Positions 7,873 to 53,921 of a stretch of DNA of 64,000 bases are shown piece by piece. The stretch spans positions 682,001 to 746,000 of the forward strand of contig NZ_CP059987.1 of NCBI RefSeq assembly GCF_014483895.1, written 5' to 3'. The stretch is from Protaetiibacter sp. SSC-01 (lineage in GTDB: Bacteria > Actinomycetota > Actinomycetes > Actinomycetales > Microbacteriaceae). The number at the start of each line of letters is the position of its first letter. Position 1 is the first letter of the stretch. A program made the position numbers and the translations under genes. The notes below the pieces were generated by a model. It had not been told where the DNA came from and searched no databases. It saw nothing but the letters and a program-made list of their open reading frames with translations.

Positions 7873-7875
7873 GCG

Positions 7876-28774: not shown

Positions 28775-29788
28775 TCAGGGGCCGACGGATGCGGATGCCT
28801 CGCTCGCGCGCCCGGCGAGCGTCGCGAACGCGGCGGCGAGCTCCGCGGGCTCCGCCGCCGTGACGTCGGCGTCGAAGCGGAGGAGCGAGGCGGCGAGGGC
28901 GACCCACGACCAGGAGCCGGCGTGCACGCGTGTGCACGACGCGTCGACCGCCTCGACGGCGGCGTCGGCCGCGAAGGGCGCCACGCGGTCGAGCGGGAGC
29001 GCGAGCACGACGGCGCCCCGGCAGGGCCACTCGGCGGAGCCTGACGTGCCGCCGCGGAACCGCGCGGCGGAGCCCGCCGCGCCGCCGCGGAACCGCGCGG
29101 CGAGGAACGCGTGCGGGTCGCCGCCCGGCAGCTCGCGCGGGGCGAAGCGGGCGCCGCGCGCGGAGCGGAGCCGCATCCGGTCGACGCGGAAGACACGCCA
29201 GTCGGCGCGGTCGACGTCCCACCCGATGACGTACCAGCGGCCGGCGCGCGCGACGAGGTGGTGGGGTTCCGCGCGACGCGGGGGCGCATCCGTCTCGTCG
29301 CGGTAGTCGAAGCGCAGCGTCTCGCGGGCGCGCATCGCGGCGCTCACGGCGAGCAGCAGCGCGGGGTCGACGGGGTCGGCGGGGTCGACGGCGTCGGCGG
29401 CGGCACGCGTCACGGCGGTCGCGAGCGCGTCGACGCGGTGCCGCAGGTGCGACGGCATCACGGTGCGCACGGTCGCGAGGGCGCGCTCGGCGGGCTCGCC
29501 GATGTCGGCGCCGGATGCCGTGGCCGTCTGCAGCGCGATCGCCACGGCGACGGCCTGCTCGTCGTCGAACAGCAGGGGTGGCAGCTCGGAGCCCGCGTCG
29601 AGGCGGTAGCCGCCGTCGGGCCCCTTGACCGCCCGCACGCGGTAGCCGAGCTCCCGCAGGCGGTCGACGTCGCGGCGCACGGTGCGCACGCTCACCTCGA
29701 GCCGCTCGGCCAGCACCTCGCCCGGCCAGTCGCGGCGCGCCTGCAGCAGTGAGAGCAGCTGCAGCATCCGCGAGGTCGTGTCGGCCAT
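28775..29788 (-). CDS. WYL-domain transcriptional regulator (YafY/DeoR-like)
   Basis: The 337-residue protein has an N-terminal winged helix (MLQLLSLLQARRDWPGEVLA, then VSVRTVRRDVDRLRELGYRV) and a WYL ligand domain with RWYVIGWDVDRADWRVFRVDR. The C-terminal part contains a short internal duplication, ARFRGG, that looks like a recent expansion. The -10 box TAGTCT (29800-29795) lies six bases before the ATG (leaderless). It is divergent from the VOC-family gene at 29888, a common pairing, so it probably controls that gene. Confidence 0.92.
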   Translation of the reverse strand: MADTTSRMLQLLSLLQARRDWPGEVLAERLEVSVRTVRRDVDRLRELGYRVRAVKGPDGGYRLDAGSELPPLLFDDEQAVAVAIALQTATASGADIGEPAERALATVRTVMPSHLRHRVDALATAVTRAAADAVDPADPVDPALLLAVSAAMRARETLRFDYRDETDAPPRRAEPHHLVARAGRWYVIGWDVDRADWRVFRVDRMRLRSARGARFAPRELPGGDPHAFLAARFRGGAAGSAARFRGGTSGSAEWPCRGAVVLALPLDRVAPFAADAAVEAVDASCTRVHAGSWSWVALAASLLRFDADVTAAEPAELAAAFATLAGRASEASASVGP

Positions 29789-29887
29789 GGCTCGAGACTA
29801 GATCGGGAAGAGGCCGAGAACTGTCCTGTACTGGGCGAAGACTGGCGAAGCCGCATCCGGCACCACACCCTCACGAAGGAGATCGCG

Positions 29888-30313
29888 ATGACCATCGCCA
29901 CCACGCCCCACCTCAACTTCCGCGGCGACGCCCGCGCGGCGCTCGAGTTCTACCAGTCGGTCTTCGGCGGGCAGCTCGCGCTCGTGCGCTACGTCGACGC
30001 GGGAGCCGTCACCGACCCCGCCGAGGCCGAGCAGATCATGTGGGGGCAGGTCGCCTCCGACGCGGGCTTCCGCGTCATGGCCTACGACGTGCCGGGCCAC
30101 ACCGAGTGGGCGCCGGGCGTCATCCCCGTGTTCGTCTCGGTGCGCGGCACCGACGCCGACGAGCTCACCGGCTACTGGCAGAAGCTCGCCGAGGGCGCGA
30201 CCGTCGTCGTGCCGCTCGCGCCCGCGGGCTGGTCGCCCCTCTATGGCATGCTGCGCGACCGCTTCGGTGTCACGTGGGTGCTCGACCTCGAGGTGCCCTG
30301 GTCGCCCGAGTGA
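29888..30313 (+). CDS. VOC-family (PhnB-like glyoxalase/bleomycin-resistance fold) protein
   Basis: The 141-residue product shows the PhnB-type pattern: PHLNFRGDARAALEFYQSVF at the start, GGQLALVRYVD, and a final YGMLRDRFGVTWVLDLE. Such proteins are single-domain dimers of uncertain catalytic activity. AAGGAG lies about seven bases before the ATG. It is divergent from the WYL regulator; the short gap of about 100 bases holds both promoters. Confidence 0.9.
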   Translation: MTIATTPHLNFRGDARAALEFYQSVFGGQLALVRYVDAGAVTDPAEAEQIMWGQVASDAGFRVMAYDVPGHTEWAPGVIPVFVSVRGTDADELTGYWQKLAEGATVVVPLAPAGWSPLYGMLRDRFGVTWVLDLEVPWSPE

Positions 30314-30367: not shown

Positions 30368-31378
30368 GTGCCGTCACCCGTCTCCACCCGCGTCGTCGGG
30401 CTCGGTGTGCACCTGCCCGAGCACGTGCGCACGACGGCCGAGACCGAGGCCGAACTGCGTCGCCGCAACAGGGGTGTGCGCCTGCCGACGGGCCTCATCC
30501 GCCGCATGACGGGGGTCGAGACCGTGCACCTGCGGCCCGACGGATGGGACGCCTCCGACCTCGCCGTCGCCGCCGCCCGCGAGGCGCTCGCCGAGTCGCC
30601 CGGCGACGTCGACCTCGTGCTGTTCGCTTCCGCGAGCCAGGACCTCGTCGAGCCCGCCACGAGCCACATCGTCGCCGCGAAGCTCGGCGTCGACGCGCCC
30701 GTCATGGACGTCAAGAACGCGTGCAACTCGGTCGTCAACGCGATGCAGGTGGCCGACGCGTTCATCCGCACGGGGCAGTACCGCCGCGTGCTCATCGCGT
30801 CGGGTGAGGCGCCGACGGTCGCCGTGCGCTGGGACGTCGACGGCCACGAGCGCTTCCTGCGCTCGTTCCCCGGCTACACGATGAGCGATGGCGGTGCCGC
30901 GCTCGTGCTCGAGGCGTCCGACGTGCCGGATGTCGGCATCCGCTCGACGCGCTTCCTCGCCGTCTCGCGCCACTGGGACGTCGGCACGCTGCCCGGCGGC
31001 GGCACGATGCGCCCACGCGACGTCGACGCCGAGTACTTCGACATGGACGGGCACGGGCTGCAGCAGGCGTTCCTCGAGCTCGGCCCCGAGCCCGTGCTCG
31101 GCCTGCTGCGCGACCGCGGCCTCACGTGGGACGACTTCGACCTCGTCGCCATCCACCAGGTCGCCCTGCCCTACCTGCCGCCGATCTTCGAGCGCCTCGG
31201 CGTGCCCGACGACCGCACCGTCATCACGGTGCGCGACCACGGCAACCTCGCCTCGGTGACCCTGCCGCTGCAGCTCAAGCTCGCGCGCGAGCGCCGGATG
31301 CTGCACGAGGGCTCGCGCGTGCTGCTCATCGGGCTCGCGGGGGGTATCTCGCTCGGGCTCGTCGAGGTCGTGTGGTGA
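30368..31378 (+). CDS. Thiolase-superfamily enzyme, OleA/ketoacyl-ACP synthase III-like
   Basis: The 336-residue product has the ketosynthase III triad: Cys in DVKNACNSVVNAM, His in VAIHQVALP and Asn in DHGNLASVTLP. In a locus with OleC- and OleD-like genes, the best reading is an OleA-type enzyme that condenses two acyl-CoAs head to head to a 2-alkyl-3-ketoacid. A FabH-like elongation enzyme is the alternative. GTG 30368 lies seven bases after TAGGCT (30355-30360), so the mRNA is probably leaderless. First gene of a five-gene operon in which each start overlaps the previous stop. Confidence 0.85.
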   Translation: MPSPVSTRVVGLGVHLPEHVRTTAETEAELRRRNRGVRLPTGLIRRMTGVETVHLRPDGWDASDLAVAAAREALAESPGDVDLVLFASASQDLVEPATSHIVAAKLGVDAPVMDVKNACNSVVNAMQVADAFIRTGQYRRVLIASGEAPTVAVRWDVDGHERFLRSFPGYTMSDGGAALVLEASDVPDVGIRSTRFLAVSRHWDVGTLPGGGTMRPRDVDAEYFDMDGHGLQQAFLELGPEPVLGLLRDRGLTWDDFDLVAIHQVALPYLPPIFERLGVPDDRTVITVRDHGNLASVTLPLQLKLARERRMLHEGSRVLLIGLAGGISLGLVEVVW

Positions 31379-32187
31379 GCGGTGCGGTGGGCTCGTCGGC
31401 GGGCTTGTCGTCGGGCGCGGGCCGGCTCGCGGTCGTCGTGCCGGTGTACCAGGAGGCCGCCGGCATCGCGCCGACGCTCGAGGCGCTCGCCGCGCAGCGC
31501 GACGCCGACTTCGATGTGATCTTCGTCGACAACGGCTCGACCGACGGATCGGCGGATGTCATCCGCGCCTTCGCCGCGTCGCACGGCCTGGCGAGGTGGC
31601 GCGTGATCGACGAGCCGCAGAAGGGCACGGGCGCTGCCGCCGACACGGGCATGCGCGCCGCGATCGACGCGGGCGCGACGCTGCTCGCGCGCACCGACGC
31701 CGACTGCCTGCCCCGAGAGGACTGGACGGCCTCCGTGCGCCGCGCCCTCACGCCGCGCGAGGAGGGCGGCCTCGGGCTGCGCCTCGTGGGCGGCGAGCTC
31801 GTCGCGCGCCGCGACGAGGATGTCGGCTGGGCGACGCGTGCCCTGCTGCGCGGCGCTGTGCACCTCGCCGAGGCGTTCGGCCGCATCCGTCCGGGCAACC
31901 GCGGCGACGGGTACCTCGGGCCCTACATGATGGCGGCCGGCTGCAACGTCGGCATCACGGCCGAGCTCTACCTCGCGGCGGGTGGCTTCCCGCGCACCGC
32001 GATCGAGGAGCTGCACGAGGACCGCGCCCTCGTCAACGCCGTGCGCCGCATCACGAGCGACTACGCGCGGAGAGCGGATGTCGTGGTGTTCGGGTCGAGC
32101 CGTCGCGTGCGCGCGTGGGGGCTCCGGCGCACGCTGCTCTGGTACAAGGACCACGCGTACAAGCCCGAAGTGGTCGACATCCGATGA
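31375..32187 (+). CDS. Family 2 glycosyltransferase
   Basis: The 270-residue GT-A enzyme has VVVPVYQEAAGIAPTLEAL, DNGSTDGSADVI, and ARTDADCLP as the DxD-type metal site. It ends with RRTLLWYKDHAYKPEVVD. There are no clear membrane helices, so it acts in the cytoplasm or on the inner membrane face. GTG 31375 overlaps the OleA-like stop. Standard ole clusters do not carry a glycosyltransferase; here it could decorate the hydroxylated product of the neighbouring P450. Acceptor and sugar unknown. Confidence 0.86.
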   Translation: MSGAVGSSAGLSSGAGRLAVVVPVYQEAAGIAPTLEALAAQRDADFDVIFVDNGSTDGSADVIRAFAASHGLARWRVIDEPQKGTGAAADTGMRAAIDAGATLLARTDADCLPREDWTASVRRALTPREEGGLGLRLVGGELVARRDEDVGWATRALLRGAVHLAEAFGRIRPGNRGDGYLGPYMMAAGCNVGITAELYLAAGGFPRTAIEELHEDRALVNAVRRITSDYARRADVVVFGSSRRVRAWGLRRTLLWYKDHAYKPEVVDIR

Positions 32188-33335
32188 CGGCCGAGGTCGC
32201 GACGCGGCGGGACGCGGCGGTAGTGCGCGCGGCGCATCCGTTCGCCTTTCCGCTCGTCTCGGCCGTGCCCGGGCCGGTGCGTCGTGTGCCGGGCCTCGGG
32301 GTGATCGTGAAGGACGCCGCCCTGCTGCGCGGCGTGCTCATGGACTCCGCCCACTTCTCGAAGAACGGACCCGGCGCCCCCAGCGATCTGTGGACGCCCG
32401 TGCTCGGACCGCGCGTGCTGCTCAACATGGAGGGCGCCGATCACCTCGCGCTCCGTCGGCAGCTCGCGCCGCTGTTCTCGCCGTCGTTCGTCGACGGGTT
32501 CGTCGCCGAGAGCCTGGGCGCGGCGACGCGTTCGCTGGCGGCGGCGCTCGCGGCGGGGGAGCCCGTCGATCTCGTCGCCCACGCCCGCCGCGGCGCGAGC
32601 CACGTCATCTCGCGGCTCGTCGGCCTCGAGGAGGGCCGTTTCGACGACGCGATGTTCGCGCGCGTCTCGGCCGTCACCGGCTACGTGACTCTTGCGCGTC
32701 CGCGGCTCGGCCCGCGTCAGCTCGCATCCGCTCGTGCGATCCTCGGCGAGCTCGGCGAGCACGCGGCGCGCGCCTACGCCGGCGACGAGTCGACCGTGCC
32801 CGGACGGATGCGCGCCCTCGGCCTCGACGAGCGCGAGGCTCTCGGGGCGGTCGGCGCGTTCGTGCTGACGGGTACCGAGACGATCGTGTCGTACCTGCCA
32901 CGACTCGTGGCGCTGCTCGTCGACTCGGGGTGGCATGCGCGCATCGCATCCGACCCGGCGCGGGGTGCCCTGGATGCGGCGATCGCGGAGGGGCTGCGGG
33001 TCACGACGCCGTCGCCCGTCATGCTGCGAGCGGTATCAGCGCCGACGCGCATCGGGCCGGTCGCCGTGCGCCCGGGCGACCGCGTCATCCTCGGCACCTA
33101 CTGGGCCGACACGGCGCTCGGCGCCTTCGACCCCGAGGGCAACCCGTCGGCGTCGCTCAAGCAGCTGTGGTTCGGTGCGGGTGCCCACTATTGCCTCGGG
33201 GCGCCGCTCGCGATGGCGCAGATCCGCCTCGCGCTCGACGCCCTGCTCGCGCATCCGGGTCTCCGCATCGAGCGCCGTCGCCCCGCGCGCGGCGTGCTCA
33301 TCCCCTCCTACGCCGAGCTGGTGGTGCGCGCGTGA
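32184..33335 (+). CDS. Cytochrome P450
   Basis: The 383-residue soluble P450 has the heme-binding motif FGAGAHYCLGAPLAMAQ with the thiolate Cys at about residue 335. In the I-helix, AFVLTGTETIVSY replaces the usual AGxDTT with TGTET. An ExxR-like GLRV segment and HLALRRQLAPLFSP are also present. No ferredoxin gene is nearby. ATG 32184 overlaps the GT2 stop. Related in layout to the P450 at 36698-37942. Confidence 0.92.
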   Translation: MTAEVATRRDAAVVRAAHPFAFPLVSAVPGPVRRVPGLGVIVKDAALLRGVLMDSAHFSKNGPGAPSDLWTPVLGPRVLLNMEGADHLALRRQLAPLFSPSFVDGFVAESLGAATRSLAAALAAGEPVDLVAHARRGASHVISRLVGLEEGRFDDAMFARVSAVTGYVTLARPRLGPRQLASARAILGELGEHAARAYAGDESTVPGRMRALGLDEREALGAVGAFVLTGTETIVSYLPRLVALLVDSGWHARIASDPARGALDAAIAEGLRVTTPSPVMLRAVSAPTRIGPVAVRPGDRVILGTYWADTALGAFDPEGNPSASLKQLWFGAGAHYCLGAPLAMAQIRLALDALLAHPGLRIERRRPARGVLIPSYAELVVRA

Positions 33336-34984
33336 GCGACCTCGTGCTGTCGGTGCTGCGCGCGTGCGACGCGACGCCCGACGCCCCTGCGCTCACGGCG
33401 CACGGGCGCACGTGGAGCTACCGCGAGCTCGGCCGCCGCATCCGGAGCATCGCCGCGGGGCTCGCGGATGCCGGCCTCGCCCCCGGCGACCGCGTGCTGT
33501 TCTCGGTGCGCCCCGGCCCCGACGCCGTTACCCTCGCGCTCGGCATCGTCGGCGCGGGCGGCACGGTCGTGTTCGCCGACCCGGGGGCGGGGGAGGCCCT
33601 GTTCCGGGCGCGCGCGAACCTCGCCGCGCCGCGCTGGGTCGCCGCCGAGTCGCTGCTCTACCTCGCAAGCTCCGGGCCGCTGCGTCCGCTCGCACGTCGG
33701 CGCGGGCTCGAGCTCGCGCCCTACGGGCGGCTCGTTCCGGATGCGCGCCACCTCCGCGCGGGACGCTGGCTGCCCGGCGTGCCCCGCGGCGCGCTCGCCC
33801 TCGACCGGCTCGCGGCGGGGCCCGGCCACCCGACTGCCGGCGCCGACACCCGTGATCCCCGCGCCGACCGCGCCGACCGCATCCGCCCCGGCGCCCCCGA
33901 CGACGAGGCGCTCGTCGTGTTCACCTCCGGCACGACCGACGTGCCGAAGGCCGTCGTGCACACGCGCGGCTCACTCGGCGCGGGGCTCGGCGACTTCGCC
34001 GACGGCGTCGGCATCCGCCCCGGCCTGCGCGTGCTCACCGACCAGCTCATGGTCGGCATCCCCGCCCTCATCGGCGGCGCCCACTGGACGATGCCCGCCC
34101 CCGGCCTCGACCCCGGCGCGCGGCCCGAGGCGTACCTCGAGCATCTCGGCGACGCCGAGCTGCTGTTCGCGAGCCCCGCGACGCTCGACGCCATCCTCGC
34201 CGCGCTCGACGCGCGCCCCGAGCTGACGCCCGCGCTCGAGACGATCGTGCTCGGCGGTGCCCCCGTGCTGCCGCCGCTCCTCAGGCGCGCGTTCGAGCGG
34301 ATGCCGGACGTGCGCATCCAAGCCGTCTACGGCATGACCGAGATCCTGCCCGTCGCGATCGCCGACGGCGCCGAGAAGCTCGCCGCGCCCGCGGGTGGGG
34401 GAGATGCGGTCGGCCGCCTCGTGCCGAGCGTGCGCGCACGCATCGACGACGGCGAGCTCGTGCTCTCGGGCGCCGGCCTCGCGCGCGGCTATCTCGCCGA
34501 GTTGCCCGAGCATCCGCTCGCCGAGCTGCACACGGGCGACCTCGCCGAGCTCGACGGCGACCGGCTCGTGCTGTGCGGGCGCGCGAAGGACATGTTCATC
34601 CGCGGCACGCAGAACGTCTACCCGGGCTTGTATGAGCCGCTCATCGCGGGGCTGCCGGGCGTCGCGGATGCGGCGATGGCCGGGGTTCCGGATGCCATCG
34701 GCGACGACCGCATCCTCGTCGCGGTGGTGCCCGCGCTGCATCCGCCCGCCGAGACGAGCACGTCGCATCCTCTCGCCGCCGAGGTGCGCCGCCGGCTGCC
34801 GGGGCTCATCGACGCGGGCGTGCTGCCGGATGCCGTGGTCGCCGTGCCCGCGCTCCCGCGCGCGGGCCGCTCGCGCAAGCTAGACCGCGCGGCCCTCGCG
34901 GGGATGCTCGCGCCGTTCGTTCCACCCGCCGTGGCTGAGTCTGTGTCGGCCGCACCCGTCGCCGACCCGGGGGAGCGCGCATGA
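33332..34984 (+). CDS. AMP-forming acyl ligase-like enzyme, OleC/beta-lactone synthetase type
   Basis: The 550-residue ANL-superfamily enzyme has the P-loop VVFTSGTTDVPKAVVHTRGS, YGMTEILP, and HTGDLAELDGDRLVLCGRAKDM before the mobile C-terminal domain; the last Lys lies in RAGRSRKLDRAAL. FTSGTTDVPKAVVHT fits OleC-type beta-lactone synthetases, which activate a 2-alkyl-3-hydroxy acid and cyclise it. A simple acyl-CoA synthetase is the alternative. GTG 33332 overlaps the P450 stop. Confidence 0.85.
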   Translation: MSDLVLSVLRACDATPDAPALTAHGRTWSYRELGRRIRSIAAGLADAGLAPGDRVLFSVRPGPDAVTLALGIVGAGGTVVFADPGAGEALFRARANLAAPRWVAAESLLYLASSGPLRPLARRRGLELAPYGRLVPDARHLRAGRWLPGVPRGALALDRLAAGPGHPTAGADTRDPRADRADRIRPGAPDDEALVVFTSGTTDVPKAVVHTRGSLGAGLGDFADGVGIRPGLRVLTDQLMVGIPALIGGAHWTMPAPGLDPGARPEAYLEHLGDAELLFASPATLDAILAALDARPELTPALETIVLGGAPVLPPLLRRAFERMPDVRIQAVYGMTEILPVAIADGAEKLAAPAGGGDAVGRLVPSVRARIDDGELVLSGAGLARGYLAELPEHPLAELHTGDLAELDGDRLVLCGRAKDMFIRGTQNVYPGLYEPLIAGLPGVADAAMAGVPDAIGDDRILVAVVPALHPPAETSTSHPLAAEVRRRLPGLIDAGVLPDAVVAVPALPRAGRSRKLDRAALAGMLAPFVPPAVAESVSAAPVADPGERA

Positions 34985-35889
34985 GGATCGCCGTCACAGG
35001 CGCGTCGGGGTTCATCGGCGGCGCCGTCGCCACCGCCCTCGCCGCCGAGGACCACGACGTCACGGGCTTCGGTCGTCGGGCGCGCGGCTGGTCGCATCCG
35101 CGCGCCCGCTACCGGGTGTGGGACATCACCGAGGGGCTGCTCAAGGGCGACCGCGACTTCGACGCCGTCGTGCACTGCGCGGCCCTCGCCGACGACTGGG
35201 CGCCGCTGTCCGAGGCGATGCGCGCCAACCGCACGGGCACGCGGCACGTCGTGGCCAGCTTCCCGGGCGCGCGCATCGTGCACCTGTCGACGTCGTCGGT
35301 GTACGACGCGTTCACGCCGACCGTCATGGCGCGCGAGGACGCGGCGCCCGTGAACCACTTCCTGTCGAGCTACTCGGAGTCGAAGACCTTCGCCGAATTC
35401 GAGGTCGCCGCCGCGGATGCCGTGGTGCTGCGCCCGCACGCCGTCTACGGCCCCGGCGACACGACACTGCTGCCGCGGGTGCTCGAGGCGGTGCGCGGCG
35501 GTCGGCTCGTGCTGCCCGAGGGGGCGCGCGTGCCGCACTCGCTCACGCACGTCGACACGCTCGTGGAGGCGGTGCGGCTGTCGCTCCGCGGCCCGGCGGG
35601 CGTCTACAACGTCGCGGATGCGGAGCCCGTGTCGCTCGCGGACGTGTTGGAGGAGTTCCTCGCCCGCCGCGGGGTGAAGGCGCGCATCGTGCGGCTGCCC
35701 TACGTGGCGGCGTTCCAGGCTGCGGGGCTCGCCGAGCGTGCGGCCCGCATCCGTCGCCGTCGCCCCCGCATCACCCGCTACGCCGTGAGTCAGCTGGGCC
35801 TCGAGCGCACGCTTGACCTGTCGGCGGCCCGCGAGTCGCTCGGCTTCCGCCCGGCCGCCACGACTCTCGCCGGCGCCGAGCTGTGGTAG
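34981..35889 (+). CDS. NAD(P)-dependent reductase/epimerase, OleD-like
   Basis: The 302-residue extended-SDR protein has the cofactor loop VTGASGFIGGAVA, HLSTSSVYD (Ser) and YSESK (Tyr-x3-Lys), then LRPHAVYGPGD. In the ole pathway OleD reduces the ketoacid from OleA to the 3-hydroxy acid used by OleC, which fits the neighbours. The ATG overlaps the OleC-like stop. It is the last gene of the tight operon; the iron box of the next gene begins nine bases later. Confidence 0.85.
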   Translation: MRIAVTGASGFIGGAVATALAAEDHDVTGFGRRARGWSHPRARYRVWDITEGLLKGDRDFDAVVHCAALADDWAPLSEAMRANRTGTRHVVASFPGARIVHLSTSSVYDAFTPTVMAREDAAPVNHFLSSYSESKTFAEFEVAAADAVVLRPHAVYGPGDTTLLPRVLEAVRGGRLVLPEGARVPHSLTHVDTLVEAVRLSLRGPAGVYNVADAEPVSLADVLEEFLARRGVKARIVRLPYVAAFQAAGLAERAARIRRRRPRITRYAVSQLGLERTLDLSAARESLGFRPAATTLAGAELW

Positions 35890-35897
35890 CGGTCGAC

Positions 35898-35917
35898 TAA
35901 GGTTAGGCGAGCCTTAC
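35898..35917 (+). promoter_or_regulatory. DtxR/IdeR-type iron box
   Basis: The sequence around AGGTTAGGCGAGCCT is a dyad close to the consensus for iron-dependent repressors (TTAGGTTAGGCTAACCTAA). It lies 23 bases before the siderophore-interacting-protein start, where such boxes normally lie. Its gene is truncated. Confidence 0.65.
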
Positions 35918-35939
35918 CGCGACCTCGACAGGACGCCCG

Positions 35940-36159
35940 ATGAGTTTCCGCGACGCCCGCAGCTACGACGCCCATGCCCTCCTCGAGGTGGTGCGACGCG
36001 AGCAGGTGACCCCGCACATGGTGCGCGTGACGGTCGCGGGCGACGACCTCGCCGACTTTCCCGACCACGGCTTCGACCACTGGTTCCGCCTGTTCCTGCC
36101 GCGACCCGAGGCGGATGAGGCGCTCGGCCGCCTGCCGAGGAAGGTCGACATCATCGGCA
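35940..36159 (+). pseudogene. Truncated siderophore-interacting protein (FAD-linked ferric reductase family)
   Basis: The frame starts well (LLEVVRREQVTPHMVRVTVA, then FDHWFRLFLPRPEADEALG) and matches the first about 70 residues of the family, up to LPRKVDIIG. There the similarity stops; intact members have about 250-280 residues with an RxYTxR FAD motif that is missing here. The frame then runs on into unrelated sequence until 36374. The break coincides with the end of a DUF222-type fragment on the other strand (36151-36276), so a rearrangement removed the rest. The iron box upstream is intact. Confidence 0.75.
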
Positions 36160-36276
36160 CTCCTCATCGCGCAGCGCGGCCGTCTCCGGGAGGGCAGGCG
36201 GCGCCGACACATCGCCCAGGGAGGCGAGGAAGTCGGCAAGCGGGGTCATGCATCCATGATCCCAGGATTCGAACAT
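36151..36276 (-). pseudogene. N-terminal fragment of a DUF222/HNH endonuclease-type gene
   Basis: Minus-strand frame beginning MFESWDHGCMTPLADFLASL, with a later PPALPETAALRDEE, followed at once by an artefactual stop. Start region and composition resemble the N-termini of the DUF222/HNH (13E12-type) genes that are numerous and mobile in this family. Only about 40 residues remain of the usual 400 or more. Identification rests on pattern memory and is moderate. It ends exactly where the siderophore-interacting gene is broken. The 195 bases upstream (36277-36472) hold nothing recognisable. Confidence 0.5.
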
Positions 36277-36473
36277 ACATACGAGAGTCCGAGCGACATT
36301 CGTGGAAAGGTCGTGGTGGCCCGGGCTGTGGGCGAGAGGCGAGCCCCGGGGCCGACCCGACACGCCGCCCCTAGCCGCACTGCACGACGCTGGCCCCCCG
36401 CCCGATACGAAGCCCGGCATTCGCCCGCGGGTGCTCGAGCCCGCGCCCGCCCGCCGCGCCACCGCCGCTATAC

Positions 36474-36515
36474 CGCTGGTTGAGTAGCCCGCAGAGCGGG
36501 CGTGTCGAAACCAGC
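36474..36515. repeat. Single family A repeat unit
   Basis: CGCTGGTTGAGTAGC, a GCCCGC-AGA-GCGGGC hairpin and GTGTCGAAACCAG: one complete unit with matching outer ends. Confidence 0.8.
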
Positions 36516-36697
36516 CCCGGCAAGCCCCAGCCCCGACCCCCCCCGACCCCGGCCCGACCCCGGCCCGACCCATCCCCAGCCATCCCCGGCAAGCCCCATC
36601 CCCAGCCAGCCCCCGCCAGCCCCCGCCAAGCCCGAGCCCCAGCCCCAGCCCCAGCCCAACCCCAGCCCAACTCAGCCAGCCCCAGCCGGCCCGCCCC
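36515..36697. repeat. C-rich low-complexity tract downstream of a P450 gene
   Basis: The plus strand is a run of short CCCC/AGCC/GACC words, for instance several AGCCCC hexamers in tandem. The other strand is therefore G-run-rich and could form G-quadruplexes in the 3' end of the P450 transcript. No gene is seen; frames here encode only Pro/Ala repeats. Confidence 0.7.
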
Positions 36698-37942
36698 CTA
36701 GACCTTCTCCACCACCAACGACGCATAAGCCGGAATCAGCACCCGACGCCCATACCGCCGAGACACCACGCGGTACCCCCGCCCGTCCCCGACGAGCAGC
36801 TCCAGCACCGCCGCGAGCTCCGCCCGCGCGAGCGGCCCGCCGAGGCACAGGTGCCGCCCGGCCCCGAACCACAACTGCCGGTTGTGCGGCAGGTACGGCC
36901 GGTCCATGCGGAACGCCCCCGCGACGTTGTTGGCCGTCCAGGTGAGCACCATGACGCGGTCGCCGGCGCGCAGCATCCGTCCGGCCACCTCGACGTCGGC
37001 GAGCACGGAGCGTCCGATGAGCGGCGCCGGGCTCGTCACCCGCAGCGCCTCGCGCACGGTGTCGTCGCGGTGCTCGGGGTGGGCGAGCAGCCGCGAAAGC
37101 TCGCCGGAGTCGACGAGGATCGCCGCCATCCGGGCCATCGCGGATGCCGCGGTCTCGGTTCCGGCGACCATGAGCAGCGTCGAGAGCCCCTTGGTCTCCT
37201 GCAGGGTCAGCCCGAGCTCGCGGCACCGCCCGATGACGGTGTCGGGTGCCGCCGAGGAGAAGACGTCGTCGATGTGCCCGGTGAGCTCGTCGACGATGCC
37301 GCGCGCGAGGGCGATCTTGTCGGGCGGCAGCTGCGTGTCGGCGGTCGTGCCGAGGGCGATGGATGCGAGCCGCTCGCCCGTCGCGAAGATGTCGCGGTAG
37401 GCGTCGTCGCCACGCGCGGGGTCGACGGGCAGGCCGAGAAGCTGCGTCACCATCCGTCCGACGAGGATGCGGGAGAGGTCGGCGAGGTCGAGCCGCTCAC
37501 CCGCCTCGAACGCGGCGCGCGCCTCGCGCAGGCGGTCGCCCCACGCGTGCTCGACGAACGCGGCCGACGTGCGCTCGGTGAAGAGCTCCTTGCTGCGGGT
37601 GCGGAGGTCGTGGTGGCCGGGCCCGTCGAAGAGGTCGTACACCCAGTCGCCGAGGATCTGCGCCCACAGGTGCCCCACGCCGCCCTCCGACAGCAGCGTG
37701 AGGTGGGCGGGGTCGTTGAGCAGGTTGCGCGCGACCACCGGGTCGGACGTGATCCACCCGAGCCCCGGCACCTTCATGATGGGCCGAGCGAACTGCCCGA
37801 GCCAGTTGAGCACCGGCAGCGCGGGCCGTGCCGCACGCAGCAGGCGGTGCTCGTGTGCGGCGGCCCCCGACCCGATCCCGTCGGCGATCAGACGGATGCG
37901 GCGCTCGCGCGGGGCGGCGTCCAGTTCGGCGGCGACGGGCAC
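36698..37942 (-). CDS. Cytochrome P450
   Basis: The 414-residue P450 has the heme motif FGAGRHLCLGGPLARAE (Cys at about residue 362), the I-helix VAGTETAASAMARM and an ExxR motif in VREALRV. The N-terminus has no membrane anchor. GTG 37942 lies six bases after TAGGCT (37954-37949), so it is probably leaderless. It is convergent with the OleACD-type operon across the rearranged siderophore region and shares the TETxxS-type I-helix with the P450 there. It may be a second tailoring enzyme of the same product, but this is inference from proximity. Confidence 0.92.
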   Translation of the reverse strand: MPVAAELDAAPRERRIRLIADGIGSGAAAHEHRLLRAARPALPVLNWLGQFARPIMKVPGLGWITSDPVVARNLLNDPAHLTLLSEGGVGHLWAQILGDWVYDLFDGPGHHDLRTRSKELFTERTSAAFVEHAWGDRLREARAAFEAGERLDLADLSRILVGRMVTQLLGLPVDPARGDDAYRDIFATGERLASIALGTTADTQLPPDKIALARGIVDELTGHIDDVFSSAAPDTVIGRCRELGLTLQETKGLSTLLMVAGTETAASAMARMAAILVDSGELSRLLAHPEHRDDTVREALRVTSPAPLIGRSVLADVEVAGRMLRAGDRVMVLTWTANNVAGAFRMDRPYLPHNRQLWFGAGRHLCLGGPLARAELAAVLELLVGDGRGYRVVSRRYGRRVLIPAYASLVVEKV

Positions 37943-37962: not shown

Positions 37963-38035
37963 CAGGTGGTCGAGCAGCCCCGCGCCCACCCAGGTGGTCG
38001 AGGAGCGCCGCGAAGCGACGCGTCTCGAGACCACC
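37963..38035. repeat. Family B repeats; 37991-38035 identical to 55728-55772
   Basis: A partial copy (CAGGTGGTCGAGCA, 37963-37976) is followed by a full 45-bp unit beginning CAGGTGGTCGAGGAGC and ending CTCGAGACCACC. The full unit is the exact reverse complement of 55728-55772, so identical inverted copies flank the exopolysaccharide region. Confidence 0.85.
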
Positions 38036-38047
38036 CCACGCACAACC

Positions 38048-39499
38048 TCAGTAAGCCCCATTCCGCGCCAACACGGCCTTGAGCGTGCGCCACAGCAGCA
38101 CGACATCGCCGACGAGCGACCAGTTCTCGACGTAGTAGAGGTCGAGGCGGATGCTGTCCTCCCACGACAGCGAGCTGCGTCCGCTGACCTGCCACAGGCC
38201 CGTGAGTCCCGGCCGCACGAGCAGGCGGCGGTGCGCGGCTTCGTCGTACAGCTCGACCTCGCGCGCGAGCGGCGGGCGCGGGCCCACGAGCGACATCGAC
38301 CCGCCGAGCACGTTGAACAGCTGCGGCAGCTCGTCGATCGAGAACCGCCGCATGAAGCGACCGACGGGGGTGACGCGCGGATCGTCCTTGAGCTTGAACA
38401 GCACCTCGTTGCCGGCGTCGCGCTCGCGCTGCAGCAGCTCCCCGAGCCTCGCTTCGGCGTCGACGACCATGCTGCGGAACTTCAGCATCCGGAACTTCTC
38501 GCCGTGCAGGCCGATGCGTTCCTGTTTGAACAGCAGGGGGCCGCGCGAGGTGAGCTTGACGGCGAGCGCGGCGGCGATGAGCACGGGCGACAGCACGATG
38601 ACGAGGAGGAGCGCGCCCAGGTAGTCGAACGCCCGCTTCGTGAAGCGCCCGGCGCCCTCGTAGCGGGGCGTCTCCACGTGCACGAGCGGCAGGCCCGCGA
38701 CGGGGCGGGTGTGGATGCGGGGGCCGGCGACGTCGACGAGGTTCGGCACCATCACGAGGTGCTGCTCGCCCGGGACGAGCGTCCACGACAGTTCCCGCAC
38801 CTCGCGCGCCGACATCCCGTGCCCGGCCGCCATGATGACGGTGTCGGCGTGGTGCTGCTTCATGACGGCTTGCAGTTCGGCCACAGGTTCGACGGGGATG
38901 CCGGATGGCAGGTCGACGATGGCGCCCGGCCGCGTGGTGCACACGGCGACGGGGTAGTACCCGGCCGATGATTGGCGGCGCAGCGTCGCGATGATGTCCC
39001 GCACGTCGCGAGAGCCCCCGACGACGACGCAGCGTGCGCTGTAGCGACCGAGGCGGCGCACCGAGTTGAGCCACTGCCGCCACAGCCACCGCTCCAGCAG
39101 CAGCGCGACGATTCCCGCGGGCAGAGCCACGAGAAGGTACCCGCGGCTGAACTGGATCTGGAAGGCGAACCCGATGATCGCGACGACGCCGAAGAGTTGC
39201 AAGCTCGAGGCGGCGACGCGCTTGTACTCCTCCGGACCCGCGCCGACGATGCGGGATTCCCGGGTGGCTCCGATGGTCAGCACGAGTGCCCACGCGAGTA
39301 CGAGCAAGACCGAGAACATTGTGTAGTTCACCGTGAAGGTCGTCAGCTTCTCGGGAACGCCCACCCGCTCAGAGTCGTCGCCGAACCAGAGGAGCTGAGC
39401 GCCCCATACGGCCCATACGACGACGAAGAAGTCGCTCCAGGCGAGGCGGCGCGCGTATCTGAGGCGCCAGTTCGTCCTCGTAGTCTCCCCAGAACCCAC
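38048..39499 (-). CDS. Polyprenyl-phosphate sugar-1-phosphate transferase (exopolysaccharide priming enzyme)
   Basis: Starts polysaccharide repeat-unit synthesis by moving a sugar-1-phosphate onto undecaprenyl phosphate. The 483-residue product has four N-terminal helices, a nucleotide-binding-like middle region (RCVVVGGSRDVRDI), one more helix, and the catalytic C-terminus with KLTSRGPLLFKQERIG, RMLKFRSM, RRFSIDELPQLFNVL and MSLVGPRPPL. GTG 39499 lies eight bases after TAGGGT. It diverges from the kinase/Wzz gene across 135 bases and opens the exopolysaccharide locus on the opposite strand. Confidence 0.93.
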   Translation of the reverse strand: MGSGETTRTNWRLRYARRLAWSDFFVVVWAVWGAQLLWFGDDSERVGVPEKLTTFTVNYTMFSVLLVLAWALVLTIGATRESRIVGAGPEEYKRVAASSLQLFGVVAIIGFAFQIQFSRGYLLVALPAGIVALLLERWLWRQWLNSVRRLGRYSARCVVVGGSRDVRDIIATLRRQSSAGYYPVAVCTTRPGAIVDLPSGIPVEPVAELQAVMKQHHADTVIMAAGHGMSAREVRELSWTLVPGEQHLVMVPNLVDVAGPRIHTRPVAGLPLVHVETPRYEGAGRFTKRAFDYLGALLLVIVLSPVLIAAALAVKLTSRGPLLFKQERIGLHGEKFRMLKFRSMVVDAEARLGELLQRERDAGNEVLFKLKDDPRVTPVGRFMRRFSIDELPQLFNVLGGSMSLVGPRPPLAREVELYDEAAHRRLLVRPGLTGLWQVSGRSSLSWEDSIRLDLYYVENWSLVGDVVLLWRTLKAVLARNGAY

Positions 39500-39634
39500 G
39501 AAGGGTCACCCTACCCGGGCAGTGTGTCCGGGATGTGACGTGACCTTGAGCCGCCAAACACTGATTGTTCGTCGGCTAGGCTGTCCGAGCGCTGCAGCGG
39601 CGCTCAGGCGTTACCGAGCCCGGAGGTTTACTAC

Positions 39635-41014
39635 GTGGAGTTGCGCGACTACCTGCGTATCCTCCGGCGCAATTGGCCCGTAATTCTGGTCATGCTCGTG
39701 CTCGGTACTGCTGGGGGTGCCACCTTCTCGCTGCTTCAAACGCCCCAGTACGAGGCGACCACCAAAGTCTTCGTATCCGCATCGAGTGCCGACACGGTGT
39801 CCGACCTCAGCGCGGGCAACAGCTACACCCAACAAATCGTGCGCAGTTACGCCGAGGTAGTCACGACCGGCCTCGTGCTCGACCCGGTCATCTCGGAACT
39901 GGGACTCGACGAGTCGCCGCAGGAGCTCGCGGATCGGGTCAGCGCGTCGGTCAAGCTCAATACCGTCATCGTCGACATCACGGTGACGGGCCCCGACCCG
40001 GAGCTCGCTGCACAGATCGCTAACGCGATCGCGGACAACCTCATCGATGCGGTCCCCGAACTCACGCCGGCGAACGCAGAGGGCGTCGTGCCGGTCAAGG
40101 TAACGGTCACCCAAACCGCGCAGGTGCCCGCCGAGCCCGTGTCGCCCCGCGTGCTGCTCAACACCGCGCTCGGGGCGCTCATCGGCCTAGCGCTCGGGGT
40201 AGGAGTCGCTGTGCTGCGGAGCGTTCTCGACCAGCGCATTCGCGGCCAGCGCGACATCGAGCTTGTGACGGACCGCCCGATTCTCGGGGCCATCGCATAC
40301 GACGCGAAGGCGAAGGAACGTCCTCTGATCGTCCACGCCGACCCCCTCAGCCCTCGCGCAGAGTCCTTCCGCGCGCTGCGGACCAACCTGCAGTTCGTCG
40401 ACATGGGTTCAGAACGTCGCAGCTTTGTCGTCACCTCGTCGATCGAGAGTGAGGGAAAGAGCACCACGACGGCGAATCTGGCGATCGCTTTGCGCGACTC
40501 GGGGCTCAACGTCTGCGTCATCGAGGGGGATCTGCGTCGGCCCAAGCTCGTGGAGTACCTCGGCCTCGAGGGGGCGGTCGGGCTGACGGACGTGCTCATC
40601 GGCCGGGCCCCGCTCGCTGACGCGCTCCAGCGCTGGGGACGCAACAACATGTTCGTCCTTCCCGCCGGGCAGATTCCGCCGAATCCGAGCGAGTTGCTCG
40701 GTTCGGCCGCGATGGCGAAGCTGCTGCGCGATCTCGAAGCAGAGTTCCACATCGTGCTCGTCGACGCTCCGCCGCTGCTTCCCGTGACTGACGGTGCGAT
40801 CCTTGCGAAGCAGACCTCGGGGGCGATCGTGGTCGCTGCGGCCGGACGTACCCAGCGGACCCAGCTCGAGGGGGCCCTCAAGTCGCTCGACAACGTCGAT
40901 GCGAAGGTGCACGGTCTCGTGCTCACGATGATGCCTACAAAGGGCCCGGACGCGTACGGCTACGGTGCGTACGGCTACGGCTACGGGGACGCGCAGGATC
41001 CCGCAAAGCGCTGA
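39635..41014 (+). CDS. Wzz-type chain-length regulator fused to a bacterial tyrosine kinase
   Basis: The 459-residue protein has a Wzz domain with two membrane helices (about 17-35 and 168-190) and an outer loop. A cytoplasmic BY-kinase domain follows, with Walker A SSIESEGKSTTTANLA, Walker A' VIEGDLRRPKL and Walker B IVLVDAPPLL. The C-terminal tail YGYGAYGYGYG is the expected autophosphorylated Tyr cluster. It controls polysaccharide length together with the phosphatase encoded next. GTG 39635 has GGAGG upstream, and a -10 TAGGCT lies at 39577-39582. Confidence 0.94.
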   Translation: MELRDYLRILRRNWPVILVMLVLGTAGGATFSLLQTPQYEATTKVFVSASSADTVSDLSAGNSYTQQIVRSYAEVVTTGLVLDPVISELGLDESPQELADRVSASVKLNTVIVDITVTGPDPELAAQIANAIADNLIDAVPELTPANAEGVVPVKVTVTQTAQVPAEPVSPRVLLNTALGALIGLALGVGVAVLRSVLDQRIRGQRDIELVTDRPILGAIAYDAKAKERPLIVHADPLSPRAESFRALRTNLQFVDMGSERRSFVVTSSIESEGKSTTTANLAIALRDSGLNVCVIEGDLRRPKLVEYLGLEGAVGLTDVLIGRAPLADALQRWGRNNMFVLPAGQIPPNPSELLGSAAMAKLLRDLEAEFHIVLVDAPPLLPVTDGAILAKQTSGAIVVAAAGRTQRTQLEGALKSLDNVDAKVHGLVLTMMPTKGPDAYGYGAYGYGYGDAQDPAKR

Positions 41015-41030
41015 GAATCGGAGTCTGCAG

Positions 41031-41648
41031 GTGACCGTCGCCGAATCCCCGTTCCGGGTGCTCTTCGTCTGCACGGGGAACATCTGCCGATCGCCTCAGG
41101 CTGAGCGCCTGTTGGTCGCCGAGCTTGCTCGCCGCGGTCTCGGCGACGCGACCGAGGTCTCGAGCGCCGGTGTCGCTGCACTCGTCGGGAATCCGATGGA
41201 CCCGCAAGCCGCCGCTCACACGATTGGCCACGGGGGGAACCCGGGTGACCACTCGGCTCGACAGGTCGATGCGTCGATGATCGACGCAGCCGACCTGGTG
41301 CTCACCATGGAGCGGACTCATCGCGCGGCGGTGGTTCGCATGGTGCCCCGCGCGAGCCGGTATGCGTTCACGCTGCCCGAGTTCGTACGGCTCGCTGTCG
41401 ACCTTCGGGATTCGGGTGAGGCGGGCCAGGTAGGTAAGTCGTTCGGGGTGCCCGAACGCATGCGGTGGCTCGTGCCGGAGGTCGCCGCACAGCGGGGGGT
41501 GTCTCTGCCCACAGCCCCGGAACATGACGAGGTCGAGGACCCGTACCGCAGGTCGGAAGAGACGTATAGGCGCTCGGCGGCGCGGGTGGCCGCCGCCGTC
41601 TCCGCGCTTGTCGAGGTCATCGTCGACCTCGGAGAGATCTATCGCTAG
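41031..41648 (+). CDS. Low-molecular-weight protein-tyrosine phosphatase
   Basis: The 205-residue product has the active-site loop VCTGNICRS (Cys-x5-Arg) near the N-terminus and a general-acid Asp in VEDPYRRS near the C-terminus. It starts 16 bases after the kinase gene, so it is very probably the phosphatase that reverses the kinase's Tyr phosphorylation. A middle insertion (about residues 90-160) makes it longer than the usual 150-160. Confidence 0.92.
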   Translation: MTVAESPFRVLFVCTGNICRSPQAERLLVAELARRGLGDATEVSSAGVAALVGNPMDPQAAAHTIGHGGNPGDHSARQVDASMIDAADLVLTMERTHRAAVVRMVPRASRYAFTLPEFVRLAVDLRDSGEAGQVGKSFGVPERMRWLVPEVAAQRGVSLPTAPEHDEVEDPYRRSEETYRRSAARVAAAVSALVEVIVDLGEIYR

Positions 41649-41724
41649 TCAGCGCGATCTCGTCGTGGATGCGCTGCGATGGGGGAGAACCGGTGACCGT
41701 CGCACGCACGGCTAGGGTGTCACA

Positions 41725-43194
41725 GTGAGCGACGCGATGAGCCGAGGGGCGCGTGGCGCCAGCCACATGTTGCTCGCGCAGGTCGCTCGCGTGGGTATCC
41801 AATTCCTGTCCGTCGTGGTGTTGGCGAGACTGCTCGCACCGGAGGCGTTCGGTGTCGTCGCGATGGTCACGGTCTTCATCTCCTTCGGTGAGATGTTGCG
41901 GGATCTCGGGCTGACGACGATCGGCTTGCAGCGTCCCGATCTGACGCATCAGCAGGCGTCGAACTTGTTCTGGATCAACTCCGGGCTCGGTCTCGTCACC
42001 GCGATCGCGCTGGCCGCCTCCGGGGGGCTCCTGGCGATGATGTATCAGGACGCTCGGATGCTCCTCCTCGCGCCGGCTCTGGCGCCCGTGCTGTTGATCA
42101 ACGGCGTGACCGCTCAGCTCCGCGTTCAGCTCGCGCGTTCGCGCCGGTTCATCCCGATAGCTGCGTCCGATCTGGCGTCCCCTGCGATGAACCTCGCGGT
42201 GGCTGTGGCCCTCTCTCTCCTCGGCTTCGACTACTGGGCGATCGTTATGGGCGCTCTCGCCGGTCCGCTTTCCGCGTTCGTCGTGATCGCGGCGTCCGCA
42301 CGATGGGTGCCGACGCGGCCGCGTAGCGACGGATCGTCGCGGACTCTGGTCAAGGACGGCGCCGCCTTCGGCATGGCGCACTTCCTGACGTTCGTCTCTC
42401 AGAACCTCGACACTGTGATCGTCGGCGTGCGTTGGGACGCGGGGAGCGTGGGGATCTACAGCCGTGCGTATCAGTTACTCCAAGTCCCCGTGAGCAGCCT
42501 CGTGGGTCCGCTGAGTCAAGTCGTCGTCCCGACCGTCAATGCGGCTGCAGCCGAGGGGCGCCCCGTCGATGTGGTCCTGCAGCGAATCCAGTTCGCCCTC
42601 GGATTGGCGATCACCAGCCTGTTCGTTGTCACCGGAGCGACCGCCGATTGGCTCATTCCCGCGATGCTCGGCCCGGATTGGGTCGCTGTGGTGCCCCTCT
42701 TCCAGATCATCGCGATCGGCGGGGTGTTCTGGGGCTTCTCGAACGTCAACTACTGGCGCACGATCATCGGCAACAACGGCATGCAGCTCGCCTACTACAA
42801 CCTCGTCTCTAAGGGTCTCGGTATCGCCCTCATCGTCGTGGGCAGCTTTATCAGCATCGAGGCCGTCGCCTCTGCTGTCGCGCTGTCGCTGTTCATCAAC
42901 TGGGCTGGCGGCCTCGTGTGGTTCTGGAAGGCTGCGCACTGGCCGTCGGCGCAGTACTTCCGCGAGGCGCTTCGAATCTTGGTCCCCGGACTCGTCGTCT
43001 ACGCGGTGAGTTGGGGGCTCATGCAATATGTCGGGGGCGCAGAGCGCTGGTGGGCCGCGATCGCCGTCGGCCTGTTCGCCGGCGCTGCTCTCATCGGGTC
43101 GATACTGCTTCAGCGAGAAGGCCGGGAGCGCCTGCGGGGTGCCCTGGCGATCATCCGGCGAATGGCACGGCGTGCGCAGGGCCCCGCAACGTGA
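41725..43194 (+). CDS. Polysaccharide flippase (Wzx, MOP superfamily)
   Basis: The 489-residue product has about 12-14 membrane segments and the family's start pattern RGASHMLLAQVARVGIQFLSV, then VLARLLAPEAFGVVAMV. It would flip lipid-linked repeat units across the membrane. GTG 41725 lies six bases after TAGGGT (41713-41718), so the gene has its own leaderless promoter inside the locus. Confidence 0.91.
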   Translation: MSDAMSRGARGASHMLLAQVARVGIQFLSVVVLARLLAPEAFGVVAMVTVFISFGEMLRDLGLTTIGLQRPDLTHQQASNLFWINSGLGLVTAIALAASGGLLAMMYQDARMLLLAPALAPVLLINGVTAQLRVQLARSRRFIPIAASDLASPAMNLAVAVALSLLGFDYWAIVMGALAGPLSAFVVIAASARWVPTRPRSDGSSRTLVKDGAAFGMAHFLTFVSQNLDTVIVGVRWDAGSVGIYSRAYQLLQVPVSSLVGPLSQVVVPTVNAAAAEGRPVDVVLQRIQFALGLAITSLFVVTGATADWLIPAMLGPDWVAVVPLFQIIAIGGVFWGFSNVNYWRTIIGNNGMQLAYYNLVSKGLGIALIVVGSFISIEAVASAVALSLFINWAGGLVWFWKAAHWPSAQYFREALRILVPGLVVYAVSWGLMQYVGGAERWWAAIAVGLFAGAALIGSILLQREGRERLRGALAIIRRMARRAQGPAT

Positions 43195-43246
43195 CCGCAA
43201 TGTCGGCTGGTTAGACTGACGCGGACTCTAGGGGGAACCGAGCCGC

Positions 43247-44995: not shown

Positions 44996-46089
44996 CCTCG
45001 CTCCTCGTCCTCGGGGCGACCGGGATTATCGGCACGCACATCGTCAGCGCGGCGGTGGAAGCCGGTGTGCGGGTGACGGCCGTGAGTCGCGGGAACCGCC
45101 CCGCGAGGTTCCCGGATGGTGTCAGGCGAGTCGCGGTCGACGGCAGAGATCCGACATCCATGGAAGGGGTGCTGGCCGGAAGCCAGTTTGACGCCGTGAT
45201 CGACCTCCTGTCGTTCGGCCCGGAGCACGTGAGCATGACCCTCAACTGGGTGAGGCGTTTTTCCGACCGCTACGTCTTCATCTCATCGGCGACCGTGTCG
45301 GAGTCGGCGCCGCCAGGAGCCGTGATCGACGAGAACTCGCCGCTTGTGAACTCCGGATGGTCATACCCGCTGAAGAAGGTTGCCGCCGAGCAGCTCCTGG
45401 GGGACGTGATCGCCGACGGCGACCTGGATGTCGTGATCGTTCGCCCCTACATCATCTACTCCGAGCAGCGACTTGCGTTCGGGCCCTGGGAATCAGACGA
45501 GGTCATGGCGCGCATCCGCTCCGGCCGTCCCATCGCGCTACCGCAGGAAGTCGCCGTAGCGAGGACTTCGGTGACGCACGCCGCCGATGCCGCGCGTGCG
45601 GTGGTCGCGCTGTCACTCGCCCCAGGAGCCTCTGGTGCCACGGTCCAAGTCGCGTCCCCCGAGACGGTGACCTGGCGTGAGATCTTCGATATCGCCGCTG
45701 ACGCGGTCGGCGCACCTGTCGACCTCCACACCATGCCTGAGAGTCAGTTCATCGCCGCGCTACCTCACCTCAGCGGGAAGGTGGGCGACCGCGTCAAGGA
45801 TCGTGCGTTCTCCACTGCAGGTCTGGAGCAAGTGCTGCCCGATTTCCGGTTCGACATCGGCGTTGGGGAGGGGTATCGGGAGATCATCGACCAGGCGACT
45901 CCGCGACGTCATCCCCTGACCCGCATCGACGGCGTGCATGATCGGTTGCTTTCGGAAACCGGTGTCAGAGCGCCCGCGCCGCGGGGACTTCAGCTTCGAG
46001 AGCACGCGCGTTACGCCATTGGACGGTCGCGAGCGCTCAGTGAACTGCACGCCACGCTGCGTCGCGCGCACTTGGGAAACTACAACTAG
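44992..46089 (+). CDS. NAD-dependent epimerase/dehydratase family protein
   Basis: The 365-residue extended SDR has LLVLGATGIIGTHIVSAAVE, FISSATVSES and YPLKK in place of YxxxK (Tyr-Pro-Leu-Lys-Lys keeps the Tyr-x3-Lys spacing). A C-terminal extension of about 50 residues is basic. The start GTG overlaps the MenD-like stop, so the two enzymes are co-translated and probably act in the same sugar pathway. Substrate unknown. Confidence 0.82.
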   Translation: MTSLLVLGATGIIGTHIVSAAVEAGVRVTAVSRGNRPARFPDGVRRVAVDGRDPTSMEGVLAGSQFDAVIDLLSFGPEHVSMTLNWVRRFSDRYVFISSATVSESAPPGAVIDENSPLVNSGWSYPLKKVAAEQLLGDVIADGDLDVVIVRPYIIYSEQRLAFGPWESDEVMARIRSGRPIALPQEVAVARTSVTHAADAARAVVALSLAPGASGATVQVASPETVTWREIFDIAADAVGAPVDLHTMPESQFIAALPHLSGKVGDRVKDRAFSTAGLEQVLPDFRFDIGVGEGYREIIDQATPRRHPLTRIDGVHDRLLSETGVRAPAPRGLQLREHARYAIGRSRALSELHATLRRAHLGNYN

Positions 46090-46154
46090 GAGCGTTCCCG
46101 CCCGTGTCGCTGACGCGGACGCCGCGGCGGTGCGCCGCGTTGTACCGTGGGCGG

Positions 46155-47375: not shown

Positions 47376-47430
47376 ACCTGTCCGCTAAGTTCGTTCGAAG
47401 CCGTGGTTCCGCGGCGGGGAGGAGTTAGCT

Positions 47431-53909: not shown

Positions 53910-53921
53910 CAACAGACCACG

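Follow-up and report, generated by a model that had tools for sequence, protein, structure and literature searches.

What would a bacterium make with relatives of OleA, OleC and OleD that are encoded together with a glycosyltransferase and a cytochrome P450, and with no OleB? The question is raised by a five-gene operon at 30368-35889 of a 64,000-nucleotide stretch of DNA (hereafter the window; positions 682,001 to 746,000 of contig NZ_CP059987.1) from Protaetiibacter sp. SSC-01, whose genome is a single contig of 2.96 Mb. The operon encodes a ketosynthase (KS), a GT2 glycosyltransferase, a cytochrome P450 (P450a), an adenylate-forming ligase (LIG) and an extended short-chain dehydrogenase/reductase (SDR), with four-base overlaps (GTGA or ATGA) at all four junctions, and a second P450 gene (P450b) lies nearby (Table 1). 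A preliminary description of the window had reported the five overlapping genes and the neighbouring P450, and their coordinates and start and stop codons check out. As judged from sequence, the most likely product would be a glycosylated, hydroxylated lipid with two acyl chains, made through OleA- and OleD-type reactions and a subsequent adenylation.

Conservation of the operon and absence of OleB

Relatives were gathered by scanning named genomes for KS, and the best 80 of 111 loci were used. In 65 of the 80 the stretch examined contained all five genes, each time on one strand and in the order KS-GT-P450a-LIG-SDR. The five-gene loci span 25 genus labels (an empty label, if any, being counted), and the families richest in loci are Promicromonosporaceae (25), Microbacteriaceae (20), Pseudonocardiaceae (13) and Micrococcaceae (9), with five of the 80 lacking a family label. 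The nearest named KS relatives are in two metagenome-assembled genomes (96% and 93% identity) and Homoserinibacter gongjuensis (90%). The order given in the preliminary description (OleA-like, GT2, P450, OleC-like, OleD-like) and its family assignments agree with this pattern, and the search among other Microbacteriaceae that it suggested extends the order to several actinobacterial families. One defined lipid is very likely the product of a block whose order is maintained from Microbacteriaceae to Pseudonocardiaceae. The other 15 loci comprise six variants, L076 (which resembles one variant locus and is interrupted by a contig end) and eight in which at least one gene was not found, including the shortened stretches L054, L056, L075, L094 and L095. 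Another order, KS-GT-LIG-P450-SDR, is present on plasmid pKVP2 of S. viridifaciens and in two genomes of the same class (L204, L211 and L212).

P450b is found in the flank of 36 of the 65 loci with all five genes, always on the strand opposite to the operon; in Microbacteriaceae it lies downstream, in Promicromonosporaceae mostly upstream. Because of this recurrence it probably belongs to the system. Clustering of the flanks of 30 loci chosen from the 80, with families present in at least four loci considered, gave only lineage-specific neighbours besides P450b, and further system genes there were dismissed. Occurrence of the operon is patchy within the family sample, where 15 of 199 genomes (SSC-01 included) have a KS match standing well above the rest, at 55-100% identity and with two of the 15 matches split into two pieces; two of the four listed genomes of the window's genus have one. 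Three of 396 genomes in a phylum sample, again including SSC-01, have KS at E ≤ 1e-60.

An OleB query found no matches at E ≤ 0.001 in the whole SSC-01 genome; that query does recover OleB from two of the 12 genomes searched, G119 and G033, which served as positive controls. Ten of the 11 KS-carrying genomes searched (SSC-01 included) have no OleB match, one of the ten, G113, being 77% complete. A hidden or fused OleB can be set aside, since the genome has no match and the 80 loci yielded only a weak hydrolase match in L103, at 22% identity. The missing OleB of the preliminary description thus holds genome-wide as far as the search reaches, and an OleB gene fused to these genes, or conserved with them elsewhere, was looked for and not found. 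G119 holds both systems, with KS, GT2, P450a and LIG near 0.72 Mb and OleA, OleBC and OleD near 2.46 Mb, so the KS-LIG and canonical ole systems can coexist; the distant OleD of this genome might serve both.

Table 1. Genes of the operon and the neighbouring P450, with positions in the window
Gene and predicted product	Positions	Strand	Features
KS, OleA-type ketosynthase	30368-31378	+	GTG start, 336 aa; thiolase fold
GT2 glycosyltransferase	31375-32187	+	GTG start, 270 aa; DxD (RTDADC) and ED motifs
P450a, cytochrome P450	32184-33335	+	ATG start, 383 aa; heme Cys and GTET I-helix kept
LIG, adenylate-forming ligase	33332-34984	+	GTG start, 550 aa; OleC sister clade, CoA-ligase-like A8 and GRxxK A10
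SDR, extended, OleD-like putative 2-alkyl-3-oxoacid reductase	34981-35889	+	ATG start, 302 aa; YSESK
P450b, second cytochrome P450	36698-37942	-	intact 414-aa frame

Relationship of the operon enzymes to OleA, OleC and OleD

The catalytic residues E95, C119, H263 and N293 of KS are invariant in 14 aligned rows, and the motifs EPAT (with the OleA glutamate), NACN and HQ[VI] are present in the KS of all 80 loci. The EPAT glutamate corresponds to the residue named E117 of Xanthomonas OleA in PDB titles; it has no counterpart in the four FabH-like rows compared, whereas KS and its relatives keep the Glu, Cys, His and Asn. Canonical OleA, for which references were taken from true ole clusters, has NACL (NACLG) where KS has NACN. 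The search pattern of a survey of Gram-positive olefin genes, as given in the available text, is EPxx[AS]x(14,18)DxxNACL (PMC7158056), and it would miss the KS family because NACN replaces NACL. A careful tree places the family rows and four relatives from a plasmid collection apart from both canonical OleA (13 rows, support 100/99) and FabH (100/100). Locus L131, from a genome of the same class and with two adjacent KS matches and no OleB match in 15 kb, was left out of this tree; its KS was long-branched in an earlier one.

Two genomic contexts link this KS group to OleA. On plasmid p1 of Streptomyces sp. BHT-5-2 (L206:8977-13569), a KS 44% identical to that of the window leads an operon in the order KS - OleB-like - OleC - OleD, in which each of the three neighbouring gene pairs overlaps by 4 bases. 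The OleB-like product shares 33% identity with an OleB half and has haloalkane dehalogenase as its best model, at 138.9 bits and below the cut-off of 241. The plasmid table that we used lists no genes for this oleABCD-like stretch. The second context is in Nonomuraea gerenzanensis, where OleB-, OleC- and OleD-like genes lie near a KS (43% identity, active site DACN) and on the strand opposite to it. By context, therefore, the KS group can serve as OleA, and we consider the KS of the window very probably OleA-like in chemistry.

The SDR of the window has the NAD(P) motif GASGFIG and YSESK, and its best NCBIfam model is OleD. In a quick tree restricted to matches covering more than 180 residues, SDR and its relatives group with OleD against 13 other SDR rows (two pairs of which are identical) with a Shimodaira-Hasegawa-like approximate likelihood ratio (SH-aLRT) value of 90. 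YxxxK was matched by a looser regular expression in 58 of 66 rows, and SDR probably acts as OleD.

For P450a, at least 80 of 81 rows show GTET in the I-helix and all 81 the heme cysteine, and P450b has both in 44 of 44, as read from alignment columns; in the motif counts for the P450s, GT2, LIG and OleC, here and below, some genomes are counted twice. A role for P450b as a P450-derived glycosyltransferase activator was rejected (76.6 of 343 bits for TIGR04515), since all 44 rows keep the heme cysteine and P450b therefore looks like a genuine P450. For GT2, regular expressions find the ED motif in all 87 loci and DxDC in 83; no close solved relative of GT2 was found.

In a tree of 66 rows, including 34 other actinobacterial adenylating enzymes, LIG (17 rows) and OleC (15, two of them identical) form one clade with an SH-aLRT value of 97, each alone having 100. 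A careful tree unites LIG (12 rows), Streptomyces-type ligases (3) and OleC (12) with 100/99 against 21 other adenylating enzymes, and within this group OleC forms one subclade (100/100) and LIG with the Streptomyces-type ligases the other (100/99). Its rows are 12 of the 17 LIG, 10 of the 15 OleC, together with two further OleC sequences, and 21 of the 34 others, five sequences having been added; the remaining 13 other adenylating enzymes were left out by choice as long-branched or redundant. LIG is by this analysis sister to OleC and outside the OleC clade. The phylogeny proposed in the preliminary description thus gives a divided answer, with LIG sharing a clade with OleC apart from ordinary ligases and yet not being OleC itself. 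The predicted fold of LIG is about equally like those of many two-domain adenylating enzymes and gives no distinction between the lactone, CoA and amide types.

The proposed product and its alternatives

From the gene content and its conservation, the intact motifs, the kinship of KS, LIG and SDR to OleA, OleC and OleD, and the failure to find OleB, we infer the following chemistry, each step of which is conditional. KS would join two acyl-CoAs head to head to give a 2-alkyl-3-oxo acid (OleA chemistry), which SDR would reduce to the 2-alkyl-3-hydroxy acid (OleD chemistry). LIG, whose action on this KS/SDR product we consider fairly likely, would adenylate the carboxyl and most likely close a beta-lactone, which would persist because OleB is absent. 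P450a, together with P450b where present, would hydroxylate the acyl chains, and GT2 would attach a sugar to a P450-made hydroxyl. The product of such a route would be a glycosylated, hydroxylated lipid built from two acyl chains and ending as a beta-lactone, a reading that we put forward tentatively. The beta-lactone is the single most likely final state, and we place it somewhat below an even chance because LIG differs consistently from OleC and sister loci use another adenylating family. The preliminary description had proposed a hydroxylated, glycosylated beta-lactone; the OleA, OleC and OleD kinship and the missing OleB are borne out, and hydroxylation and glycosylation are probable, but the LIG motifs leave its lactone short of being established.

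A series of observations weighs against this scheme. KS lies outside the canonical OleA clade and scores 152.4 bits with NF006720, for which the cut-off is 285; FabH ranks above OleA in a PDB sequence search, and FabH and OleA matches to the predicted KS fold tie. The OleA of Actinoplanes atraurantiacus, from a cluster compared below, was recovered in small amount and condensed none of the C8-C16 acyl-CoAs tried, while being active on a p-nitrophenyl ester, according to the available text of PMC7064751. The OleD model gives SDR 122.6 bits against a cut-off of 580. No SDR match was found by similarity search beside the other four genes in L079, L080 and L110, or near the KS, GT2, P450a and LIG genes of L214 (in G119) and L218 (in G049).

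Further contrary evidence comes from LIG, which scores 90.2 bits with the OleC model (cut-off 900) and has as its best NCBIfam model a fatty acyl-CoA ligase subfamily (121.6 bits). At the catalytic lysine of A10, GRxxK is present in 68 of 70 LIG loci (69 named and the window's own) and RHxxK in all 15 OleC rows, two of which are identical; the GRxxK pattern is also matched by one of the 15. The A8 hinge is found in 68 of the 70 loci versus one OleC row, and an N[VI]YP loop in 69 versus none. The three Streptomyces-type ligases carry the LIG pattern, and the OleC proteins of BHT-5-2 and Nonomuraea carry that of OleC. L131, without OleB, yet has a ligase of the OleC motif pattern, so absence of OleB alone does not track the LIG pattern.

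The ligase is also replaced outright. In seven sister loci (L049, L051, L053, L055, L057, L059 and L215), an adenylate-forming protein of the TIGR02304 'F390 synthetase-related' family stands in place of LIG, with scores of 373.7 and 334.2 bits in the two scanned (cut-off 251.9) and the other five assigned by similarity, which counts further against the proposed route. All seven retain KS, P450a and an SDR, and a GT2 of the operon type was not found in them. From this replacement, the adenylation step seems to be needed and its enzyme exchangeable. L055 adds HpnI-like and EryCIII-like glycosyltransferases, and L049, from Psychromicrobium silvestre, has, directly upstream of KS (7690-9975), a 761-aa protein in which ATP-grasp and GNAT (Acetyltransf_6) domains are fused. 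A gene of sulfolipid-1-addressing (SfLAP) type adjoins the TIGR02304-type gene in five of the seven – L059 (6833-8997), L053, L051, L057 and L215, one called by Pfam scan and four by similarity – and hints at lipid export.

These features bear on an open-chain alternative, in which LIG would activate the 2-alkyl-3-hydroxy acid and pass it to a thiol, or to a sugar or other acceptor, to give a mycolate-like glycolipid with no lactone, the sugar coming from GT2 and the hydroxyls from the P450s. The A8 loop of CoA ligases serves thioester formation, and LIG has its A8 loop and GRxxK as in thioester-forming adenylating enzymes, unlike OleC. The exchange of LIG for the TIGR02304 type alongside the same KS and P450a points the same way, as do the ATP-grasp/GNAT fusion in one variant locus and the SfLAP-type gene in five. 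However, LIG is sister to OleC, its retained A8 may be just ancestral, and the operon has no acyl carrier or acyltransferase gene. Moreover, CysF, a relative of acyl-CoA and amide synthetases, closes a beta-lactone, as stated in the available part of PMC11427300, so the A8/A10 motif is not decisive on lactone formation. On balance we regard an open-chain product as unlikely, though a serious alternative.

A 2-alkyl-3-hydroxy acid is the core of corynomycolic acid, and of the family labels carried by 75 of the 80 loci we take none to be that of a mycolate producer. It is conceivable, if rather unlikely, that an Ole-derived route outside the mycolate producers yields mycolate-like acids that are adenylated and built into an exported glycolipid rather than a beta-lactone. 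KS, SDR and P450 would form the conserved core of such a route, and lineages would differ in how they adenylate and add sugar, using either the OleC-sister ligase with GT2 or the TIGR02304 type with other transferases.

Alternatively, LIG could act upstream, converting an unusual free acid, such as a P450-hydroxylated one, into a CoA thioester for KS, in which event the end product would be a glycosylated 3-hydroxy acid. Its A8/A10 motifs are nearer those of acyl-CoA ligases, and the fatty acyl-CoA ligase subfamily outscores OleC (121.6 versus 90.2 bits); its sister relation to OleC and the fact that it is conserved together with OleA- and OleD-like partners make this arrangement improbable. 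Quite improbable too is a KS that is a FabH/PqsD-like decarboxylating or acyl-transferring enzyme, with the operon making an unrelated small acylated glycoside. Such a role would fit FabH as the best PDB match by sequence and fold (in fold tied with OleA), the NACN in place of NACLG and the lack of acyl-CoA condensation by the Actinoplanes enzyme (available text of PMC7064751), but the OleA glutamate is conserved, trees separate KS from FabH and a relative sits in an oleABCD-like operon. An ordinary FabH with an ordinary acyl-CoA ligase is dismissed, since trees and motifs set KS and LIG apart from both; in the trees run, the ligase does not fall among ordinary acyl-CoA synthetases nor KS with FabH, groupings that the preliminary description had named as contrary to its proposal.

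A beta-lactone product, if that reading is correct, might define a new family of inhibitors of serine hydrolases, and an open-chain product, if that alternative holds, would be a mycolate-like glycolipid in bacteria not known to make any. The LIG clade, with its own C-terminal module, is a test case for what makes an acyl-AMP enzyme a beta-lactone synthetase.

Genomic surroundings and comparison with known systems

Just upstream of the operon, at 28775-30313, are two genes with weak matches, one on the minus strand to helix-turn-helix proteins and the other to the VOC family. Both are probably outside the system because among the 80 named loci each was seen in L036 only. Downstream, at 35895-36374 on the plus strand, is a siderophore-interacting protein gene that looks cut short, PF08021 matching to the first part of the family alone. 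The palindrome aaggttaggcgagccttacc, which we take to be iron-box-like, precedes its start, and low-complexity DNA rich in CCCAGCCC lies between this gene and P450b. From 38000 to 54000 the window contains an exopolysaccharide locus with a GC content of 0.63-0.67, compared with 0.70-0.76 in most of the window; it includes genes for a polyprenyl glycosylphosphotransferase, a Wzc-like kinase, a Wzb-like phosphatase, a flippase, a thiamine pyrophosphate enzyme, an epimerase, a pyruvyl transferase and DUF4012.

Among known systems, canonical olefin clusters (oleABCD or oleA-oleBC-oleD) resemble the window in having OleA-, OleC- and OleD-like enzymes adjoining. The window departs from them in being without OleB, in its extra GT2 and P450, in having KS and LIG clades of its own, and in the A8/A10 motifs of LIG. 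Clusters of the nocardiolactone/lipstatin type share with the window OleA, OleC and OleD without OleB. They use two KS subunits, and we know of none with a glycosyltransferase/P450 pair. L131, an OleACD locus with two KS matches and no OleB match, is presumably similar to these; its two adjacent KS matches and OleC-type ligase contrast with the one KS and different ligase type of the window. The nocardiolactone cluster includes a beta-lactone synthetase, according to the available text of PMC7413640. The CysF type of beta-lactone formation, in cystargolide and belactosin, offers a further parallel in that an adenylate-forming enzyme closes the ring, with ATP-grasp partners both there and in L049; it belongs to a peptide warhead chemistry, and the available portion of PMC11427300 does not mention OleA or OleD.

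The closest likeness is to a cluster of A. atraurantiacus listed as OleA, glycosyltransferase, OleC, P450 and OleD in a genome without oleB (Smith et al., mBio 2020, PMC7064751, here and below as far as the available text goes). The route proposed for it comprises condensation, reduction, hydroxylation and glycosylation along with closure of a beta-lactone ring (PMC7064751). Compared by description rather than by sequence, it has the same five kinds of protein as the window and likewise lacks oleB; it lists OleC before the P450, as in L204, L211 and L212, whereas in the window the P450 precedes the ligase. The gene set, with the same guess at its product, was thus already described in 2020 (PMC7064751). 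The preliminary description knew of no described product, and our search of open-access literature, with subscription papers mostly outside it, likewise found no identified product of the gene set; both the gene set and the guess were nonetheless in print (PMC7064751). What is added here to these known systems is the breadth and order conservation of the operon, the association of P450b, the distinct clade and motifs of LIG, the replacement of the adenylating enzyme in sister loci and the connection of the KS group with an oleABCD-like operon.

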